A DNA stretch of 40,018 bases from Desulfovibrio sp. OttesenSCG-928-A18 (GTDB lineage: Bacteria > Desulfobacterota > Desulfovibrionia > Desulfovibrionales > Desulfovibrionaceae). The stretch is from NCBI GenBank assembly GCA_030267245.1, contig JAJDJN010000004.1, positions 1 to 40,018 on the forward strand. Reading direction: 5' to 3'. A model generated the notes under the pieces. It was not told the origin of the DNA, made no database searches, and saw only the letters and a program-made list of their open reading frames with translations. Both the position numbers and the translations under genes were made by a program. Every line of letters begins with the position of its first letter. The first letter of the stretch is position 1. Below are positions 6,147-23,512 of this stretch, piece by piece.

Positions 6147-6659
6147 TTACAGTTCTGAAAAGGTGGAGCTGATTACGATATTTGAACTAGTTTTTATTCC
6201 TGAAATGCCGGAGCTGTTTTCGATGCTGGAGACGGCCCCGGCATTCCAGATGCAGCCGGAAGCGCAGTCCCAAGCATAGTACCAGCTTGAAACGGTATCA
6301 AAGCGCATTTCCCACTGATACGGCGTTATGATGATGCCGTCATATTTTGCGGCGATGTCATTCCAACGAATATGCAGGCCATCAACGAAATCTTTGCGTA
6401 TGCCGTATCGCCTGGTAATGAGAGCGATGTCTTGTGGGCTGCTCGCCAGCAAGATTTGAGCCTCCGGCTGCAAGGTTACGTCAAAAGCATATACCAGCTT
6501 GTCCAGGCCGAACTCGTTTTCTTTGCACCAGTTCGGCCAGCTATCTTCGCAATCGTCGTCTGACAGCCACAGCCCTCGCGGCTTGAAGTGCGGTTTGTCG
6601 ATTTGCTGCACATCGCGCATCGTCAGCGTTGGCGTCGCGCTGTAGTGTCGAAGTTTCAT
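6147..6659 (-). CDS. Conserved phage hypothetical protein, 170 aa
   Basis: I recall similar phage proteins of unknown function that begin LRHYS and contain FKPRGLWLSDDDCEDSWPNW, a middle YDGIIITPYQWE and the tight motif WYYAWDCASGCIWN. That conserved Cys/Trp motif suggests an enzyme core, but none is known to me. The end is low-complexity (Ser, Ile, Asn-rich). A GAGGA site is 8 bases before the ATG. It is convergent with the HNH-like gene, and its start faces directly into the 21-23 bp repeat array, so that array may also control its transcription. Confidence 0.65.
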   Translation of the reverse strand: MKLRHYSATPTLTMRDVQQIDKPHFKPRGLWLSDDDCEDSWPNWCKENEFGLDKLVYAFDVTLQPEAQILLASSPQDIALITRRYGIRKDFVDGLHIRWNDIAAKYDGIIITPYQWEMRFDTVSSWYYAWDCASGCIWNAGAVSSIENSSGISGIKTSSNIVISSTFSEL

Positions 6660-6839
6660 AGCGTCGTCCTCATTTTTTTGGCGTCGAGACTCGAAAAAGT
6701 TGGCGTCGATCTTGCGTTTTTTGGCGTCGAGACTCGAAAAAGTTGGCGTCGATCTTGCGTTTTTTGGCGTCGAGTGTCAGGATTTTTGGCGTCGAGACTC
6801 GAAAAAGTTGGCGTCGAGAGTCGGTTTTTCCAGCGTCGA
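6660..6839. repeat. Iteron-like array, GGCGTCGA core every 21-23 bp
   Basis: The 8-bp core GGCGTCGA occurs at 6680, 6702, 6723, 6745, 6766, 6789 and 6810, with AGCGTCGA at 6832 and a weaker AGCGTCGT at 6660. Steps are 20-23 bp, close to two turns of the DNA helix. Bases 6680-6722 and 6723-6765 are identical. Cores are preceded by T runs, and alternate cores are followed by GAGACTCGAAAAAG, which holds the odd palindrome TCGAGACTCGA. The period of 43 bases is not a multiple of three, so this is not a coding repeat. It resembles plasmid and phage replication iterons or a partition site. Confidence 0.8.
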
Positions 6840-6883
6840 GGGCGCGGTTTTTGCCCTGCTTCCGGGCCGTTTTCGGGGCTGGG

Positions 6884-7017
6884 CCGGGCACGAGCCCGGA
6901 CAAATGCGCTTGGAGTAGCCGTCAGCGATCCCGGTGACGGACGTGCAAGACCTCATGCTGCTGTTAATAGTAGCAACGATTCAACGGCGCAAGGCTTGCT
7001 TTGCGCCGTTGAATCGT
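6884..7017. other. Cluster of three hairpins next to the iteron array
   Basis: Three inverted repeats follow the array: CCGGGC/GCCCGG at 6884-6899 with a 4-base loop; CCGTCA/TGACGG at 6919-6940; and a perfect 17-bp arm pair at 6976-6992 and 7001-7017 with an 8-base loop. None has a T tract that would make it an ordinary intrinsic terminator. The last lies 30 bases beyond the stop of the minus-strand operon and may end its RNA, or may form part of an origin. No protein-coding gene is supported from 6660 to 7047. Confidence 0.65.
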
Positions 7018-7047
7018 CCGGAAGCTGTCAGCCTCCCAAGAGCACAA

Positions 7048-7311
7048 TCAACCTATCTTGACCGTTGCCCAATTACAGACAAACTCATCCTCATCCACAA
7101 CACCAATTGAGTCGGTAAAAACGATCTTATGAGTTTGTACCCTGTATTCTGCGCCGCTGCCGTGGGTGCCGCTCAATGCGGCATTGCGCGCCGTAAGCTC
7201 GCCATAACATTGTAAGTCTTTGGCGTCACTATCGCTTATAAGCTCCTTGCAAAGTTCGAATTCGCCTGGTGCCATGTCGTCGTTTGAATAATAAATGCGC
7301 GTGATAAACAT
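7048..7311 (-). CDS. Hypothetical protein, 87 aa
   Basis: No family recognised. It is a small acidic protein (DSDAKD, VVDEDEF) without membrane segments. AAGGA lies before the ATG at 7311. It is the last gene of the minus-strand operon that includes the sliding clamp, and ends about 30 bases before the large 17-bp hairpin. Confidence 0.55.
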   Translation of the reverse strand: MFITRIYYSNDDMAPGEFELCKELISDSDAKDLQCYGELTARNAALSGTHGSGAEYRVQTHKIVFTDSIGVVDEDEFVCNWATVKIG

Positions 7312-7570: not shown

Positions 7571-7633
7571 AAAGTTTCCGGTCTTATCGCTTGCCCTTGG
7601 ACAGCCAAGGGCAAGAGGAAGACTGGAAACTTT
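7571..7633 (-). repeat. Duplicated stem-loop, copy A (leader of the 75-aa gene)
   Basis: A two-part hairpin. The outer arms AAAGTTTCCGGTCTT and AAGACTGGAAACTTT pair with one mismatch. The inner arms CTTGCCCTTGG and CCAAGGGCAAG pair perfectly around an ACAG loop. Bases 7575-7629 match 8830-8884 with only two changes. It starts at the stop codon of the clamp gene, so it lies between two genes of one operon. Confidence 0.7.
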
Positions 7634-8798
7634 AAGCGGCCTGGCTCTGGCGGTCTTCGGCCTCGCAATTGTCAGGATGCCAGCTTTGTAAGATTTTCAT
7701 TGGCATGATGACGTATACGCCGCGCCAGCCATCGCCGATAAAACACGGCCCGACATTGTTTGTAAATTCCAGCGTGACAAAATCGCCTGTTGTGTTTTCG
7801 ACGATCTGCAAAAGGTTTTTAAGCGGAAAAGCTATTATGTTTACATCGCCGTAAAACTCGCATGGCATTTCCGCACTCGCTCGCCTGTTATGTGTCATTA
7901 TTGAGCACTTGCAATCGTCAAAATTAAACACTATTGAACGATCATCATTCGTAACAGACGGCAATAGCGTTTTCAAAATTGCAACAAGCCCTGATCGCGA
8001 AAAAGTTACGCTGCTTTTCGCTTCGCGCTCTCGCCGCACCATAAAATTGCTTATGTCAATCGCATTGTATGGAGAAAAAACGGAAGTATAGACGGAATTT
8101 TGCGAGGCAGCGAAAAAGTGATCTTCCGTTGCAGAAAGGCGGATCGTCTTTTCTGACTTCGGGATTGCCCTTACCCATTGTGCGAACTGGTCCGGCCTTG
8201 GCAAAGTCGCATTGCCACCAGGCGAAAAAGCGCCGTATTGCTCACCTTGCAAAGTCAGACTGTAACATTGATGACCATTGAGGGCGGACATAAGCAAGCG
8301 TGAATCGGAAAAGTCAAGTTGTATGCATGACAAGCCATCATGCGAGGCATCGCCGGCACAAAATGCCATCCGTTCAGCGACGCGCAACAGTTCGGCGCGA
8401 TCAACCTCAAGGCAATTTTGAGGAAAACTTTCAACCTGCTTGCGCATGGGGCGCGATCCATGCTTGGCATTCTCAATCTTTTGCGTTGCCGCGCCTTGAA
8501 AAATGACATCATAGTCCGTTGAAAGCGTTGCATCTGCTACCTTGGCAGACTTTGCGCTTTTTGCGGCGCTGTCGAGCGCTTGATAATTCAAGCTCTCGAT
8601 CGACTCTGGTGCGGTCACTTCGGCAGGTACGCGCGAGACAATGCGCGAGTCATCGTTTTCAGTCGTGATCAAAATTGAGTCTTTGGCGGCTTCAATGGTC
8701 ACGCAGTCATTGAGGTATGCCTTGCCCTTGAGATTGAGGGCGGGCTTGACGGATTGCAGCGCGTTGAAAAAATCGGCAGTGTTAAAAGTCGCTTGCAT
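7632..8798 (-). CDS. dnaN-like: Phage-encoded DNA polymerase III beta-like sliding clamp
   Basis: The 388-residue protein shows the overall pattern of a bacterial beta clamp. It starts QATFNTADFFNALQSVKPAL and has TIEAAKDSILITTEN typical of the first clamp domain, AERMAFCAGDASHDGLSCIQL in the second, and the ending VYVIMPMK, close to the usual 'vyvvMPmrl' at the clamp C-terminus. A short tail after it is extra. As a ring around DNA it would tether a polymerase. No clamp loader or polymerase gene is in this window, so it would have to use the host's or ones outside. The ATG at 8798 is chosen because GAAGGGAG precedes it and clamp homology begins there; a longer frame to 9011 runs through the upstream stem-loop. 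Confidence 0.8.
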   Translation of the reverse strand: MQATFNTADFFNALQSVKPALNLKGKAYLNDCVTIEAAKDSILITTENDDSRIVSRVPAEVTAPESIESLNYQALDSAAKSAKSAKVADATLSTDYDVIFQGAATQKIENAKHGSRPMRKQVESFPQNCLEVDRAELLRVAERMAFCAGDASHDGLSCIQLDFSDSRLLMSALNGHQCYSLTLQGEQYGAFSPGGNATLPRPDQFAQWVRAIPKSEKTIRLSATEDHFFAASQNSVYTSVFSPYNAIDISNFMVRREREAKSSVTFSRSGLVAILKTLLPSVTNDDRSIVFNFDDCKCSIMTHNRRASAEMPCEFYGDVNIIAFPLKNLLQIVENTTGDFVTLEFTNNVGPCFIGDGWRGVYVIMPMKILQSWHPDNCEAEDRQSQAA

Positions 8799-8829
8799 GG
8801 TAAATACTCCCTTCGGTTTTTTGTTAAAA

Positions 8830-9343: not shown

Positions 9344-9550
9344 CTATATTGTAAAGTATAAATAGTTTTCGTCATCAAGCGCCGGTTGCCGGTAAAACGG
9401 GTGTTTTCCTTTCCGCGTCAGCACATCAACAAACACGCTGTCGTTGATCTTTCTGGCGCGAGGAATTTTTAACGATCTGTTGGATATGCGAATTGCGTAT
9501 ACGTCGCGTGCGCGGCCATCTTCCCGCAAAGTCACGAGTTCTCTTTTCAT
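9344..9550 (-). CDS. Hypothetical basic protein, 68 aa
   Basis: A small, positively charged protein (ISNRSLKIPRARKI, LTRKGKHPFYRQPA). No family recognised. The leader GGTAGGGGG stands before its ATG, similar to that of the next gene in the operon. It might bind nucleic acid because of its charge, but this is only a suggestion. Confidence 0.55.
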   Translation of the reverse strand: MKRELVTLREDGRARDVYAIRISNRSLKIPRARKINDSVFVDVLTRKGKHPFYRQPALDDENYLYFTI

Positions 9551-10509: not shown

Positions 10510-10653
10510 CTATCGCAAGTAGGCAGCGGCTCTTTTCTTTGCGGCCTGCTGGCGGCGTATAAGCCGCCGCGTTGCCGCGTCCCGTGACGCCTGCGGATAC
10601 ACTGACGCCACATGCGCCACGATCCGCTTCCAGGTGGACAGCCTCACGGCCAT
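10510..10653 (-). CDS. Small basic protein, 47 aa
   Basis: The ATG at 10653 is preceded by GGGAGGT. The product is strongly basic at its end (RRLIRRQQAAKKRAAAYLR) with a helical start (LSTWKRIVAHVASVYPQ). It is the first gene of the minus-strand operon after its promoter. It may bind nucleic acid. A longer reading to 10728 has poor upstream codons and is not preferred. No family recognised. Confidence 0.55.
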   Translation of the reverse strand: MAVRLSTWKRIVAHVASVYPQASRDAATRRLIRRQQAAKKRAAAYLR

Positions 10654-10790
10654 ACCTCCCTTGGCTTCAGGTCCGGCACCATCGCCGTTCCTGTAATTCC
10701 GCCCTCGGTTTTCTGGTTCACCAAGCATCTTCTAAGCCTGGTTCGTCCCGCGCCTCTTGCGCCTTCCGGTGTTCGTGTTCGTTGATTAAT

Positions 10791-10880: not shown

Positions 10881-11123
10881 TTAATCTATTTTGCGCGGCT
10901 CGTTACGTCTCTTTGCGGGCTTGGCCTGCAAGCGCTTAATGTCTGCCGGGGATAGCAGCCAAGTCTTGCCCACTTTCACGCAATCGGCCACTTCTTCACG
11001 CCCGGCATTACACCATAGTTGCAGAGTTCGCGGAGTCGCATAGCCAAGCAGCGCGGCGGCTTCCGTGATTGTCATGTAACCGGCGCGAATATATTCCGGC
11101 ATTGTTTTTGTGACTTCTTTCAT
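10881..11123 (-). CDS. Small helix-turn-helix DNA-binding protein (excisionase/MerR-like)
   Basis: The 80-residue protein has the layout of short HTH_17/excisionase-type proteins: MTITEAAALLGYATPRTLQLW, a turn, then VGKTWLLSPADIKRLQ, and a basic tail (KPAKRRNEPRKID). In phages this class directs excision or represses promoters; without an integrase in the window the role is open. The ATG at 11123 lies only 6 bases from a strong -10 box, so this start would be used on a nearly leaderless RNA; a second in-frame ATG at 11102 is an alternative. Confidence 0.7.
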   Translation of the reverse strand: MKEVTKTMPEYIRAGYMTITEAAALLGYATPRTLQLWCNAGREEVADCVKVGKTWLLSPADIKRLQAKPAKRRNEPRKID

Positions 11124-11129
11124 GTCCTG

Positions 11130-11159
11130 ATTATATCGCCCCATGCGGCATATCGTCAA
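11130..11159 (-). promoter_or_regulatory. Promoter of the HTH gene, likely leaderless transcript
   Basis: On the minus strand: TTGACG (11159-11154), an 18-base spacer, and a perfect TATAAT (11135-11130). The expected RNA start falls at about 11123, the A of the first ATG. Confidence 0.7.
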
Positions 11160-11209: not shown

Positions 11210-11241
11210 TATGCTCCGCAAATCAAAAAGGAGTTTTGATC

Positions 11242-11952
11242 ATGAAAAACAATCAGCCTGTGCTTTCCTCGCTTTCTGTCGTCGGTGGCGTTCCCCGCGT
11301 TTCGTCGCTCGATGTGGCCCGGCATTTTGAAAAGGATCATGCCGATGTTCTTAAAGCAATCAGAAAAATTATTTCAGAGTGTCCACCGAATTTTAACGAA
11401 GGAAATTTTTCCGGCGTTGAATACTCGGATGCCAAGGGGGAAACGCGGCCCGCCTATGCCCTCACCCGTGACGGCTTTGCACTCCTGGCTATGGGCTTCA
11501 CCGGCAAGCGTGCCCTTGAATGGAAAATCAAATATATCGAAGCCTTCAACGCAATGGAAAAAGCTTTGATTGAACAGCATGTAGCACTAAGGCCCGCTCC
11601 AGCGTGCGCGATCATGGAAATGCTGCCGCCGCTTAAGCTGCACACGCGTCCTGGACAAGTCGCGCGCACAGCGACAATCAAAGAACGCGAAAGCCTGTAT
11701 GAGCCCGTCTGCGAATGGATAAAGTCTATGGACCGCCCTTGCGGCTCCGGCGGCTTTTTCCTGGGGCTGTCGATATGCGCCCACATGGCCGGCGTTGAGA
11801 GATTCTCGCAAATCCCCCAGCACGCTATAAAACCCCTTCATGCCTGGCTTGAAGAACGGATTGACGAATCGTACGCTCTGATTCAGGAACGCAGGAGGCA
11901 CGCTCGCGCCGCCCGGCTCGCTGCTATGCAGCCCGCAACCGCCATCTTGTGA
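11242..11952 (+). CDS. rha: Rha family phage regulatory protein
   Basis: The first ~115 residues match the Rha family: VSSLDVARHFEKDHADVLKAI, then RPAYALTRDGFALLAMGFTG and KRALEWKIKYIEAFNAME. Rha proteins interfere with growth or lysogeny choice in some lambdoid phages and are treated as regulators or antirepressors. The last part (about residues 150-215, RESLYEPVCEWIKSM...HMAGVERFSQIP...LHAWLEERI) is a different helical domain that also appears in the 100-aa protein at 12731 and the BRO protein at 13067. AAGGAG lies about 8 bases before the ATG at 11242. A GC hairpin terminator follows the gene. Confidence 0.85.
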   Translation: MKNNQPVLSSLSVVGGVPRVSSLDVARHFEKDHADVLKAIRKIISECPPNFNEGNFSGVEYSDAKGETRPAYALTRDGFALLAMGFTGKRALEWKIKYIEAFNAMEKALIEQHVALRPAPACAIMEMLPPLKLHTRPGQVARTATIKERESLYEPVCEWIKSMDRPCGSGGFFLGLSICAHMAGVERFSQIPQHAIKPLHAWLEERIDESYALIQERRRHARAARLAAMQPATAIL

Positions 11953-12395: not shown

Positions 12396-12566
12396 CTACC
12401 CCCCTTGCCCGGCTCCCACACGGCCACGTTGACCAGCCTTCAATGAATCAAGGACCACCAGGAGCCTGTAAACAATAGCGTTCTGGAGCTCTTTGTCGCC
12501 CATGTCGGCACTTTCCACAGCAGCCTCGATCAGGATGAGTTCCCGCACCATTTCTTCGTAAGACAT
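12396..12566 (-). CDS. Small hypothetical protein, 56 aa
   Basis: A short frame on the minus strand with a strong ribosome-binding site (AAAAGGAGAGAGT before the ATG at 12566). The product begins SYEEMVRELILIEAAVESA and continues QNAIVYRLLVVLDSLKAG, an amphipathic helical pattern, with a Gly/Arg tail. It is divergent from the 100-aa gene at 12731, and the AT-rich gap between them (12567-12730) would hold both promoters. A perfect 10-bp inverted repeat (12324-12365) lies past its stop and may end its RNA. No family recognised. Confidence 0.55.
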   Translation of the reverse strand: MSYEEMVRELILIEAAVESADMGDKELQNAIVYRLLVVLDSLKAGQRGRVGAGQGG

Positions 12567-12730
12567 ACTCTCTCCTTTTCTAGAGTTTTTCTATAATATA
12601 CTGTAATCACTACAACTATAGCGGCCATGTTTATAAATATCAACAAAAAAATTAAAATATTTTAATTTCAATTCGATTGCTAATGTCATATCCTATTCTT
12701 TTACGAATAAAAAAAGACAAGGGGTAGACC
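12567..12730. promoter_or_regulatory. AT-rich divergent control region with palindrome copy 4
   Basis: Between two divergent genes. It contains TGTAATCACTACA (12611-12623), the dispersed element ATTCTTTTACGAAT (12695-12708, one arm mismatch) and a weaker look-alike ATTCGATTGCTAAT (12671-12684). Exact promoter boxes are not clear. Confidence 0.5.
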
Positions 12731-13066: not shown

Positions 13067-13771
13067 ATGACCAAGTTTCCCGCTCTCACTTTTCAGTCCA
13101 CCACTTTTGATATCGTTGATCTTGATGGGCAGCCGTGGCTACAGGCTCCTCAAATTGCAGCGGCCTTGGGATACTCGCGCCCTGACGAAATCTCGCGCCT
13201 CTACCAGCGAAATGCCGACGAGTTTACTGAAAGCATGACGCAAACTATTGAAATCGTCGCAGAACACCACTTTGACACGCCAAATGGCCTTAGCAACGGG
13301 CGAACCCGCATCTTCTCCCTGCGCGGCTGCCACCTCCTTGCCATGTTCGCCCGCACGCCGGTCGCCAAAGACTTCCGTAAGTGGGCGCTCGACATCCTGG
13401 AGAGAGAAGCGCAACAGGCTCAACGCCATCCGCTTCCCGCGAACGTCCACCCCGCGAGCCTGCTCCCAGCTTTCTTTCAGGAACTCCCCACCCTCCCGAA
13501 AGGCAACCGGGCGTCCAGCAGTCGAGAGCGCCGCGAGCTCTTTATAGCCATGCATAACTGGATAAAAACGTGGGGAGGGCACAGCACTGAAGATTACACC
13601 TTCGCTCAGGCCATATGTGCCAGGCTCGCCGGGGTCAATGAGTATAAGCTTATACCCTTTGCCTCACTTCCCGCACTCGTTAAATGGCTGGAAGAGCACA
13701 CGAAAGAAGCCTCGACCATTGAGGAGCACGCGCTGCCGGACGCCGGCGACACGCTTGGGGTCGGCTCCTAA
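13067..13771 (+). CDS. BRO-N domain antirepressor-like protein
   Basis: Residues 1-115 form a BRO-N domain (FQSTTFDIVDLDGQPWLQAPQIAAALGY, then SLRGCHLLAMFARTPVAKDFRKW), as found in phage antirepressors and baculovirus BRO proteins. The rest carries the C-terminal helical domain shared with rha and the 100-aa gene (RRELFIAMHNWIKTW...CARLAGVNEYKLIP...LVKWLEEHT). CGAAGGAG precedes the ATG. A 114-bp block (13304-13417) is about 95% identical to the BRO gene at 26783-27754 on the other strand. The likely role is to switch immunity by binding a repressor or operator; the repressor is not identified. Confidence 0.8.
   Translation: MTKFPALTFQSTTFDIVDLDGQPWLQAPQIAAALGYSRPDEISRLYQRNADEFTESMTQTIEIVAEHHFDTPNGLSNGRTRIFSLRGCHLLAMFARTPVAKDFRKWALDILEREAQQAQRHPLPANVHPASLLPAFFQELPTLPKGNRASSSRERRELFIAMHNWIKTWGGHSTEDYTFAQAICARLAGVNEYKLIPFASLPALVKWLEEHTKEASTIEEHALPDAGDTLGVGS
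13304..13417. repeat. 114-bp inverted repeat, copy in the first BRO gene
   Basis: Pairs with 27404-27517 in opposite orientation, with about six differences by eye. It encodes the BRO-N core around the conserved RIFSLRGCH...LAMFARTPVAKDFRKW. Confidence 0.8.
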
Positions 13772-15570: not shown

Positions 15571-15959
15571 CCATTGTGCCTGACCCGGGGGATAGCAGCG
15601 TGTGGAGCCAGATAGTCGCCATTGTTTGCCGCATGGCTCTGGCTTTTGTGCTCTGGCTTGAGTATGCGCTGCCGCTGATACTCCCCGCCGGCGTGGCCGC
15701 ATGGCTCTACGGACGCCATTTTGGATACCGAGGGGCCGCTTTGAGGCTTTTTGTCGCCACAGGCATGTTCGTGGCCGTGGTTGGCACGCCGGCAACGCTG
15801 ACGTTGTTCGGCCTGGACGTTGACCTCTGGAAAACAGTCGTTTGCTGCGCCCTCTCTGTCTTTTGCTGGGAAGGCGTTCGCTGGCTCAAGGCTGCTATCA
15901 TGCGGCGCCTGGGAATAGACCGCAGGAAAGACACGACACAAGGCGGGGATGACGAGTGA
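15567..15959 (+). CDS. Holin-like membrane protein, 130 aa
   Basis: Three hydrophobic segments are visible (around IVCRMALAFVLWLEYALPLILPAG, LFVATGMFVAVVG and VVCCALSVFCWEGV), ending in a charged tail (RRKDTTQGGDDE). This is the form of a class I holin and fits the lysis cassette, but the family was not recognised, so the call is positional. The ATG overlaps the stop of the lipoprotein gene. A role in membrane-pore timing for the muramidase is inferred. Confidence 0.6.
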   Translation: MTIVPDPGDSSVWSQIVAIVCRMALAFVLWLEYALPLILPAGVAAWLYGRHFGYRGAALRLFVATGMFVAVVGTPATLTLFGLDVDLWKTVVCCALSVFCWEGVRWLKAAIMRRLGIDRRKDTTQGGDDE

Positions 15960-16321
15960 CGGCAGCCAGCAAAAAAGATCGCGACAGGCTGTACGTCGCG
16001 GTGGCCGGGCTTGCGAAGCGGGCCAATGTATATCCCGGCACAATCTGGAGCGGTCTAAAAAAGCACCTCGGCGTTGTTCGCATGAGCGATATAACGGCTG
16101 CACACATTCCCGCAGCCCTGAGCTACCTCAGTGGCCTTACGGAAAATATTTCAGGGAATTTGTCGGACACGGACTTTTTGAAAAAGATGCGCGCAGCGGA
16201 GTCAGAGGACGTGAAACTGCGCTTGGTCAAGATGGCTATTGCGCGATTTCATTTGGCCCGCCCCGAATTGGTCCAGGAATTGTGCGCGGCCATTGATGAA
16301 GCCACTAGCGGCAAGGAGTAG
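15956..16321 (+). CDS. ORF6C-like regulatory domain protein, 121 aa
   Basis: The first half (KDRDRLYVAVAGLAKRANV...IWSGLKKHLGVVRMSDI..AHIPAALSYL) resembles the ORF6C domain that follows Rha, BRO or Ant domains in phage antirepressors: a Tyr-rich helix, then LKKHLGV and a final helix. Here it stands alone, without an N-terminal DNA-binding part. The start is GTG at 15956, overlapping the holin-like gene. It may be a split regulator part or a small structural adaptor. Confidence in the family is moderate. Confidence 0.6.
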   Translation: MTAASKKDRDRLYVAVAGLAKRANVYPGTIWSGLKKHLGVVRMSDITAAHIPAALSYLSGLTENISGNLSDTDFLKKMRAAESEDVKLRLVKMAIARFHLARPELVQELCAAIDEATSGKE

Positions 16322-16671: not shown

Positions 16672-17031
16672 ATGGCCCAAAGACCACACAGACCATGCCG
16701 AAATCCCGGATGCCGCGCACTCACGCAAGAGTCGAACGGCTACTGCGCAGAGCATCAGCACATTGCCGAGGCGAAGGAACGCGAACGGCAGCGCAGGGGC
16801 GACGAGCGCAGGGAAAGCGCGTCAAAGCGCGGGTATGGGCGGTGGTGGAGCAAGGTGCGCGAACGGGCTCTGAAAGCAGAACCGCTGTGCCGGGAATGCA
16901 AAGCGAGCGACCGGATAACCCCGGCGGTGTGCGTTCACCACATTGACGAGAACCCGCGCAACAACGAGCGCAAGAACCTCATGCCGTTGTGCTTCGACTG
17001 TCATGAAAAAGCGCACGGAAGGATGCGATAA
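16672..17031 (+). CDS. HNH endonuclease next to terminase
   Basis: A 119-aa protein with an N-terminal CRNPGC...YCAEH ribbon, a basic linker, then the HNH fold: CRECKASDRITPAVCVHHIDENPRNNERKNLMPLCFDCHEKAH. His-His, Asn and the second CxxC motif are all present. HNH proteins beside the small terminase are widespread in phages with HK97-type heads and assist DNA cleavage in packaging. The stop overlaps the next start (TAATG). Confidence 0.85.
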   Translation: MAQRPHRPCRNPGCRALTQESNGYCAEHQHIAEAKERERQRRGDERRESASKRGYGRWWSKVRERALKAEPLCRECKASDRITPAVCVHHIDENPRNNERKNLMPLCFDCHEKAHGRMR

Positions 17032-21485: not shown

Positions 21486-22982
21486 ATGTACCCGATTCCC
21501 AAAGGCCTGCTTGCCAAACTGCGGGCCGAACTCGGCAAAGGAATTTCCCGTTTTCGCAATGACTTTTCGGATTCCATTGCGGAACTGGAAGAGAAGATGC
21601 ACGACCTTACCGACCGCGTGACCAAGCTTCAGGCGGCGATTGACGGAGACGGACGCAGCCCCACTCCCGAAGAAGCCAAGGAGCGCCAGGCGCTTATGGA
21701 CGAATTCGATGAAACGGAAAAGGAGCTCCAGGCCCGTCTTCGCCTCCAGGATCAGGAAGCGCGGCTTCAGGCTTCCGCCGGGCGCTATACCGTTCCCGGC
21801 CAGCCGGCCAATAGCAATGCCGATCCCGAAAGCGAATCTGAAGACTCCCCGGCTCCGAAGGCGCAGGCCCGCCCTGTGCAGCCCGCCGCGCCGAAGGCGT
21901 CAGTCGAAGTTGGCGCTCCGTCTTACTACAAGACCGGCGGCTTCAATCACTTCGGCGAGTTCGCGTTGGCCGTTTTCAACGCCAACCCTCGTTCTGGACG
22001 GGGGATAGATAAGCGCCTGCTTCAGATCACCAAGAATGCCCCGACTGACTTCGGCAGTGAGGGCGTTGACGCTGACGGCGGCTTTGCCGTCCCGCCCGAC
22101 TTTCGGGCCGAGATCATGCGCAAGGTGATGGGCGAAGCTTCAATTGTGGGAATGACTGATCAGCAGACCACCACCAGCAAGGCCATGACCTTCCCCATGG
22201 ACGAAACGACTCCCTGGCAGTCCACCGGCGGCATCCAGGTGGGATGGATCGGCGAAGGCCAGCCGATCACCCAAAGCAAGCCCGCGCTGACCAGCGGCGA
22301 AATCAAGCTGAACAAGCTGGCCGCGTTGGTACCCATCACCGAGGAACTGCTGGAAGACGCCCCGGCCATGGATCGTTACTTGAACTCCAAGGTTCCCCAG
22401 AACATGGGATTCGCCTTGAACGATGCCATCATCAATGGCACCGGCACCGGACAACCCCTGGGCATCCTGCAATCCGGAGCGCTGATAACCGTGGCCGCCG
22501 ATACTGCACAGGTGGCGGACACGATCACCTACACCAACATCGCCAAGATGCGCGGTGCCATGTACGCCGCAGGCAAGTCTCGCGGCGTGTGGCTGGCGAA
22601 CCCGTCCATTGAAGAAACGCTTATGCTGATGACGTTCCCGAGCACCACCAGTACCGTGCCGGTGTATCTGCCGCCCAACGGCGCTTCCGGTTCTCCCTAC
22701 GCTACCCTGTTCGGGCGCCCGGTCATCCCGACCGAAGCATGCGCGGATACCGGAGATCTCGGCGACCTCATCTTTGTGGACCTTGCACAGTATGCGACCC
22801 TGACTCGTCGCGGACGTGGTCTGAGGACAGATTATTCCATCCATCTGTTCTTTGACTACGACATCGGCGCGTTCCGCTTCATCTTGCGGTTCGGCGGCAG
22901 GCCCTGGTGGAACTCTCCCATCCAGGGCAAGACGGCCAGTCGCAAGTACAGCGCGTTCGTAGCTCTCGCCGAGCGCGCGTAA
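21486..22982 (+). CDS. Major capsid protein, HK97 fold, with N-terminal delta domain
   Basis: Residues 1-90 are a coiled coil (LRAELGKGISRFRNDFSDSI and following), the delta or scaffold part. It is followed by a Pro/Ala/Ser linker, then the HK97 capsid core with TDFGSEGVDADGGFAVPPDF, GWIGEGQPI, LVPITEELLEDA and INGTGTGQPLGIL. The protease upstream would cut in or after the linker, leaving a mature protein of roughly 350 aa; the exact site cannot be read. CAGGAGG lies before the ATG. Length 498 aa is longer than classic HK97 because of the extended linker. Confidence 0.93.
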   Translation: MYPIPKGLLAKLRAELGKGISRFRNDFSDSIAELEEKMHDLTDRVTKLQAAIDGDGRSPTPEEAKERQALMDEFDETEKELQARLRLQDQEARLQASAGRYTVPGQPANSNADPESESEDSPAPKAQARPVQPAAPKASVEVGAPSYYKTGGFNHFGEFALAVFNANPRSGRGIDKRLLQITKNAPTDFGSEGVDADGGFAVPPDFRAEIMRKVMGEASIVGMTDQQTTTSKAMTFPMDETTPWQSTGGIQVGWIGEGQPITQSKPALTSGEIKLNKLAALVPITEELLEDAPAMDRYLNSKVPQNMGFALNDAIINGTGTGQPLGILQSGALITVAADTAQVADTITYTNIAKMRGAMYAAGKSRGVWLANPSIEETLMLMTFPSTTSTVPVYLPPNGASGSPYATLFGRPVIPTEACADTGDLGDLIFVDLAQYATLTRRGRGLRTDYSIHLFFDYDIGAFRFILRFGGRPWWNSPIQGKTASRKYSAFVALAERA

Positions 22983-23041
22983 CCCAGACCCGGCCCGGGG
23001 GTTCTCTCCTTTCTCCCGGGCCGGCGCCAGAGGATATGCAC

Positions 23042-23512
23042 ATGGAAAAAATCAAGATCAGGTTCCTTGAAGACTGCGCCCCGAAGGACGGGAGCGGCAC
23101 CAAGTATAAGGCCGGCGAAGAACGCGAAATGGCTCGGCCCAGCGCTGAACATTGGGTCAAGCGCGGGAAGGCTGAAGCGGTGAACGGCGAGACCCAGGCT
23201 CCTGTACCTCTGCCCATCCCCGGTGCCCCGGCCCTAGGCCCGGAGGACGGCAAGCAGCCGGAAGGCGACAAGCAGCCGGAAGGCGACAAGCAGCCGGAAG
23301 GCGACAAGCAGCCGGAAGGCGACAAGCAGCCGGAAGGCGACAAGCAGCCGGAAGGCGACAAGCAGCCGGAAGGCGGCAAGCAGCCGGAAGGCGACAAGCA
23401 GCCGGAAGGCGACAAGCAGCCGGAAGGCGACAAGCAGCCGGAAGGCGACAAGCAGCCGGAAGGCGACAAGCAGCCGGAAGGCGACAAGCAGCGTGGCAGG
23501 AGTAAATCCTGA
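23042..23512 (+). CDS. DUF7210-like protein with a KQPEGD hexapeptide repeat tail
   Basis: The first ~50 residues (KIKIRFLEDCAPKDGSGTKYKAGEE, then SAEHWVKRGKAE) match the small phage domain often found between capsid and connector genes. The second half is a run of 13 KQPEGD units (one is KQPEGG), coded by an 18-bp tandem repeat. Such a charged, extended tail may be exposed on the virion like a decoration or fibre, but this is inference. The ATG at 23042 is chosen because homology begins there and AGAGGA precedes it. The stop overlaps the connector start. Confidence 0.7.
   Translation: MEKIKIRFLEDCAPKDGSGTKYKAGEEREMARPSAEHWVKRGKAEAVNGETQAPVPLPIPGAPALGPEDGKQPEGDKQPEGDKQPEGDKQPEGDKQPEGDKQPEGDKQPEGGKQPEGDKQPEGDKQPEGDKQPEGDKQPEGDKQPEGDKQRGRSKS
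23252..23493. repeat. 18-bp tandem repeat coding for KQPEGD
   Basis: The unit GGCGACAAGCAGCCGGAA is repeated about 13 times, nearly perfectly (one unit has GGCGGC). The near absence of silent changes points to recent expansion or homogenisation; repeat number is likely to vary between relatives. Confidence 0.9.

Follow-up and report, generated by a model that had tools for sequence, protein, structure and literature searches.

The phage contig and the genes around the array

The window analysed here is a whole contig (C253; 40,018 bp) of a Desulfovibrio draft genome that is 66% complete and divided among 318 contigs. Its predicted genes are those of a tailed phage or prophage and include an endolysin (14263), an HNH protein (16672), the small terminase (17288), the large terminase TerL (17849) and a portal protein (19548); a Dam methylase, a dNMP kinase and an HNH protein are encoded as well. 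The HNH gene at 16672 together with the terminase genes suggests a cos-type genome that would circularise. Position 1 of the contig falls inside a C5-type methyltransferase gene (the first ORF matches phrog_363) and the contig has no terminal overlap, so that part of the phage, comprising early genes, is missing from it; a search of the same draft genome for this left part, using its methyltransferase, did not find it. Three proteins, namely Rha (11236–11952), a Bro-N protein (13067–13771) and a short protein (15956–16321), all match antirepressor families, and their C-terminal segments seem to be related.

A non-coding array of direct repeats lies at 6678–6839, between two minus-strand genes. 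The gene on one side encodes a 170-aa protein of the phrog_8582 family (6147–6659; function unknown), whose start codon abuts the array. Its homologues occur in actinophages of Mycobacterium, Microbacterium and Gordonia at ~35–45% identity, an unexpectedly cross-phylum distribution, and it has no solved relative. On the other side is the gene for an 87-aa acidic protein (7048–7311), for which no family and no phage homologue was found. The sequence-only reading had offered these two proteins as possible initiators. Both, however, are acidic (net charge -6 for the 170-aa and -8 for the 87-aa protein), and the actinophage homologues of the 170-aa gene sit in operons that have no array upstream; neither protein therefore looks like the array binder. 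The same reading had also taken a nearby sliding-clamp operon as a hint of an origin. The gene in question, on the minus strand at 7632–8804, encodes a divergent DnaN-like sliding clamp (DNA polymerase processivity factor; phrog_947) and is uninformative on where replication starts. Among the products of the minus-strand operon, a small HTH_17/excisionase-like protein (10881–11159, minus strand) is the only one assigned to a DNA-binding family, and it is a candidate binder of the array; none of these proteins is a known initiator. Small basic proteins are encoded at 9344–9550 and 10510–10728.

Units, spacing and flanks of the repeat array

The array comprises seven exact units and a degenerate eighth, all on the plus strand, at a mean spacing of 21.7 bp. 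The sequence TTGGCGTCGA is found exactly at 6678, 6700, 6721, 6743, 6764, 6786 and 6808, with start-to-start steps of 22, 21, 22, 21, 22 and 22 bp, and each occurrence contains the core GGCGTCGA (at 6680, 6702, 6723, 6745, 6766, 6788 and 6810). The eighth unit reads AGCGTCGA at 6832, within CCAGCGTCGA at 6830. Nine units had been proposed initially, of which eight are better supported: the first (6660–6677, minus strand; GCGTCGT at 6661) is doubtful, since it overlaps the ribosome-binding site (GAGGA) from which the 170-aa gene would be translated and may be coincidental; a T7 tract (6673–6679) follows it. Even with this unit included, the core-to-core distances (20, 22, 21, 22, 21, 22, 22 and 22 bp) never reach the upper end of the proposed period of 20–23 bp. 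The proposed common face of the helix holds for neighbouring cores, which lie within ~35 degrees of each other, but not for the array as a whole: at 10.5 bp per turn, a mean spacing of 21.7 bp adds up to a drift of 171 degrees between the first and last cores, and the cores trace a slow superhelical path.

The repetition itself is well beyond chance, with seven copies of one 10-mer within 200 bp against at most three in 200 shuffles of the window. The rest of the window has only two exact matches to the core, both of them single sites on the minus strand. The identical 43-bp pair noted at first reading is real (6674–6716 and 6717–6759) and belongs to a perfect 43-bp tandem duplication of 2.3 copies, flawless in period over the 101 bp of 6674–6774, which is a recent expansion; as the assembly is a draft, the copy number is possibly under-called. 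Such a duplication indicates that slippage or unequal crossover occurs at the array, and a neutral, functionless tandem duplication could be proposed on that ground. Against this, when the five distinct units are compared, the columns GCGTCGA are invariant while the spacer columns agree in just 10–60% of pairs. Constancy of the core between varying spacers is typical of protein-binding arrays and points to selection on the core, and we regard a neutral duplication as very unlikely. The array is a new sequence of a familiar element type and, in our judgement, very probably a genuine iteron-like array of protein-binding sites.

Nine A/T homopolymer tracts of 5–7 bp (6673–6852) precede or separate successive cores and extend past the last one, compared with 0.66 expected per 180 bp. 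Beyond them, a short G+C-rich hairpin (CCGGGC ACGA GCCCGG; 6881–6899) adjoins the array, although the minus-strand RNA around it folds no more strongly than shuffled sequences. A second hairpin of 20 bp (6976–7017; 95% complementary, lacking a T-run) begins 30 bp past the stop codon of the 87-aa gene and is probably the 3' end of that gene's operon; it has no further copy in the draft genome.

Several other assignments were rejected for the repeat region. A coding repeat is incompatible with the 21/22-bp spacing, which breaks the reading frame, and the plus-strand ORF of 157 aa over the array (6588–7061) is a shifting-frame translation of the repeat with no constant peptide period. An RNA element was likewise discarded, as shuffled sequences fold at least as well as the minus strand of the array (z +1.9 and +1.1), and no Rfam match was obtained. 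No tRNA was found.

Operator and centromere readings

The position of the array immediately upstream of the ribosome-binding site of the 170-aa gene fits an operator cluster, through which a phage regulator (the HTH_17 protein encoded on the contig, for example, or one encoded off it) would control the 170-aa gene as an autonomous, moron-like unit. The hairpin at 6976–7017 points the same way in that it would close the upstream operon, leaving the 170-aa gene possibly as a unit of its own. However, no sigma-70-like promoter was found on the minus strand of 6660–6975, where phage promoters may differ from that consensus; the array-free operons of the homologous genes also count against such control, and eight operators exceed the need of a simple switch. 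Overall, we consider this reading rather unlikely.

Direct repeats of a short motif are also what a partition centromere (parS/parC-like) of an extrachromosomal prophage would present. The closest precedent is the parS of phage RedRock, in which an 8-bp motif is directly repeated eight times (PMC7157519); the present array has an 8-bp core in about eight copies. The likeness ends with copy number and motif length: in the RedRock sequence that we inspected, the repeats flank parAB and follow one another back to back every 8 bp, whereas those of the present array are 21–22 bp apart, and neither ParA nor ParB was recognised among the contig proteins scanned. A centromere is an improbable function for the array.

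Possible replication origin or transposon end

Several non-coding direct repeats lying about two helical turns apart are the pattern of an iteron origin, and a role related to replication is our leading guess for the array, tentatively held. In this reading, one protein would bind the GGCGTCGA cores cooperatively, the A/T tract ahead of each core would ease bending, and the bound protein would wrap ~160 bp of DNA, so that the array might mark or control a phage replication origin in the manner of lambda O or RepA; the initiator gene would be located in the part of the phage that is absent from the contig. Two comparisons favour the origin reading. The annotated iterons of lambda ori (sites for the O protein) are direct repeats in a row with spacings of 20, 24 and 23 bp, close to the 21–22 bp seen here. 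In addition, a relative from the same TerL group (IMGVR_UViG_3300025154_000178; TerL 50% identical) carries four non-coding GTAA(N4-5)TTAC palindromes at comparable spacing (22, 20 and 24 bp; L279:6924-7003), ~320 bp past an O-like/DnaD-like initiator gene and a helicase-loader gene. A genome that would circularise, as its cos-type genes suggest, and the loss of early genes at the cut end of the contig also fit an origin. This second array is a probable phage origin, although it is a single case and its core differs from ours in being palindromic and AT-rich. The gamma origin of plasmid R6K, with seven tandem 22-bp iterons, offers a similar count and period; that system includes an AT-rich segment and the Pi protein, for which our contig has no gene.

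Other features weaken the origin reading. Phage iterons normally lie within or beside the initiator gene, and those of lambda lie inside it, next to an AT-rich stretch; the present array has neither. As first noted from the sequence, no initiator-like protein is visible among the proteins scanned of this contig, which begins mid-gene at position 1. No DnaA box with at most one mismatch lies beside the array, the nearest being at 7091, and no AT-rich stretch adjoins it, the flank at 6840–7047 being just 39% AT. GC skew, suggested earlier as a check, did not bear the proposal out, since the array is near a local maximum of cumulative skew (~7000) rather than a minimum, a placement that gene orientation alone could explain. 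The original proposal of an origin is therefore kept as a possibility, which the array of the related phage supports and which the missing initiator, DnaA box and AT-rich flank count against. On two other contigs of the same draft genome (G000:C1:21387-23704 and G000:C275:2153-4899), helicase- or primase-like genes come after DnaD/O-like initiator or helicase-loader genes, and the stretches scanned there contain no comparable array. The AT maximum of the window itself is at 12626 (86% AT in 50 bp), and the surrounding AT-rich segment between the Rha and Bro-N genes (12551–12700) is a better candidate for unwinding or for a promoter than the flanks of the array.

If the array does prove to be an origin, it would provide a concrete 160-bp replication candidate for a group of phages of sulfate-reducing bacteria in which no initiator is recognisable close by, and its binder could be fished out directly. 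We looked for the array elsewhere in several ways. Apart from its own contig, none of 297 related genomes had a three-core match; the same pattern gave 36 matches in IMG/VR, which inspection assigned to coding or G+C-rich repeats. Exact words of 19–21 bp from the array had zero matches, a two-core pattern yielded no equivalent array and no istA match among the genome_contigs matches listed, and blastn against phages and plasmids returned weak matches only. Searches of IMG/VR with the 170-aa protein, the clamp and seven early proteins recovered no relatives, and no relative that keeps the genes around the array was found. Within the sets searched, the array is private to its contig.

The main unexpected rival to the origin is a solitary transposon end of the IS21-family (IstA) or Tn7/Mu-like kind, that is, a row of transposase sites left behind, or expanded, after the rest of the element was lost. 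At IS21 ends, an IstA tetramer binds direct repeats that lie 23 bp apart (PMC10122671). Related genomes hold IS21-family loci with arrays of like architecture at their ends, with a core beside an A/T tract and 3–5 copies 23–26 bp apart; these share with the present array short-core direct repeats by A/T tracts at about two helix turns. A simple array detector counted six arrays across the IS21 loci (94 kb in all), a single one across the viral TerL loci (424 kb) and none around dnaN (72 kb), a comparison biased by the choice of IS21 loci for their ends, by the mostly structural content of the viral loci and by the loss of imperfect iterons. The detector misses lambda ori itself, whose iterons are imperfect, and absences elsewhere are consequently weak. 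In the related genome G018, a solitary, IS21-end-like array of four copies at 20 bp (TGTCGC-type; GCGACA...TTCAGAAATAAC) lies directly upstream of a methyltransferase gene (L236:574-652, equivalent to G018:C2:93573-93651), with no istA found beside it, indicating that lone arrays do exist in the family.

The differences from such ends are nevertheless considerable. While alike in architecture, the present array has no sequence in common with the IS21 ends of relatives. IS21-family ends usually have 2–5 copies at 23–26 bp, an inverted partner end and istAB in between, none of which applies here: the copies are more numerous and the spacing shorter (21.7 bp) than in the IS21 ends seen, no inverted partner array is present in the window, no transposase was found on the contig, and no IS21 transposase was found in the 66%-complete genome. 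A second copy of the core array was not found either, and perfect cores are unlike decay. A solitary transposon end is an unlikely explanation. A variant, in which a solitary, expanded array of transposase sites would serve not as an origin but as a decoy or target-immunity signal keeping a host transposon out, seems extremely unlikely. Since origins, centromeres and IS21 transposon ends have one common architecture at the level of sequence, an iteron array should not be equated with an origin from sequence alone.

A separate set of repeats is found at 23240–23492, where fourteen near-perfect 18-bp copies (CCGGAAGGCGACAAGCAG) encode a hexapeptide repeat, apparently inside the ORF at 22907–23512.
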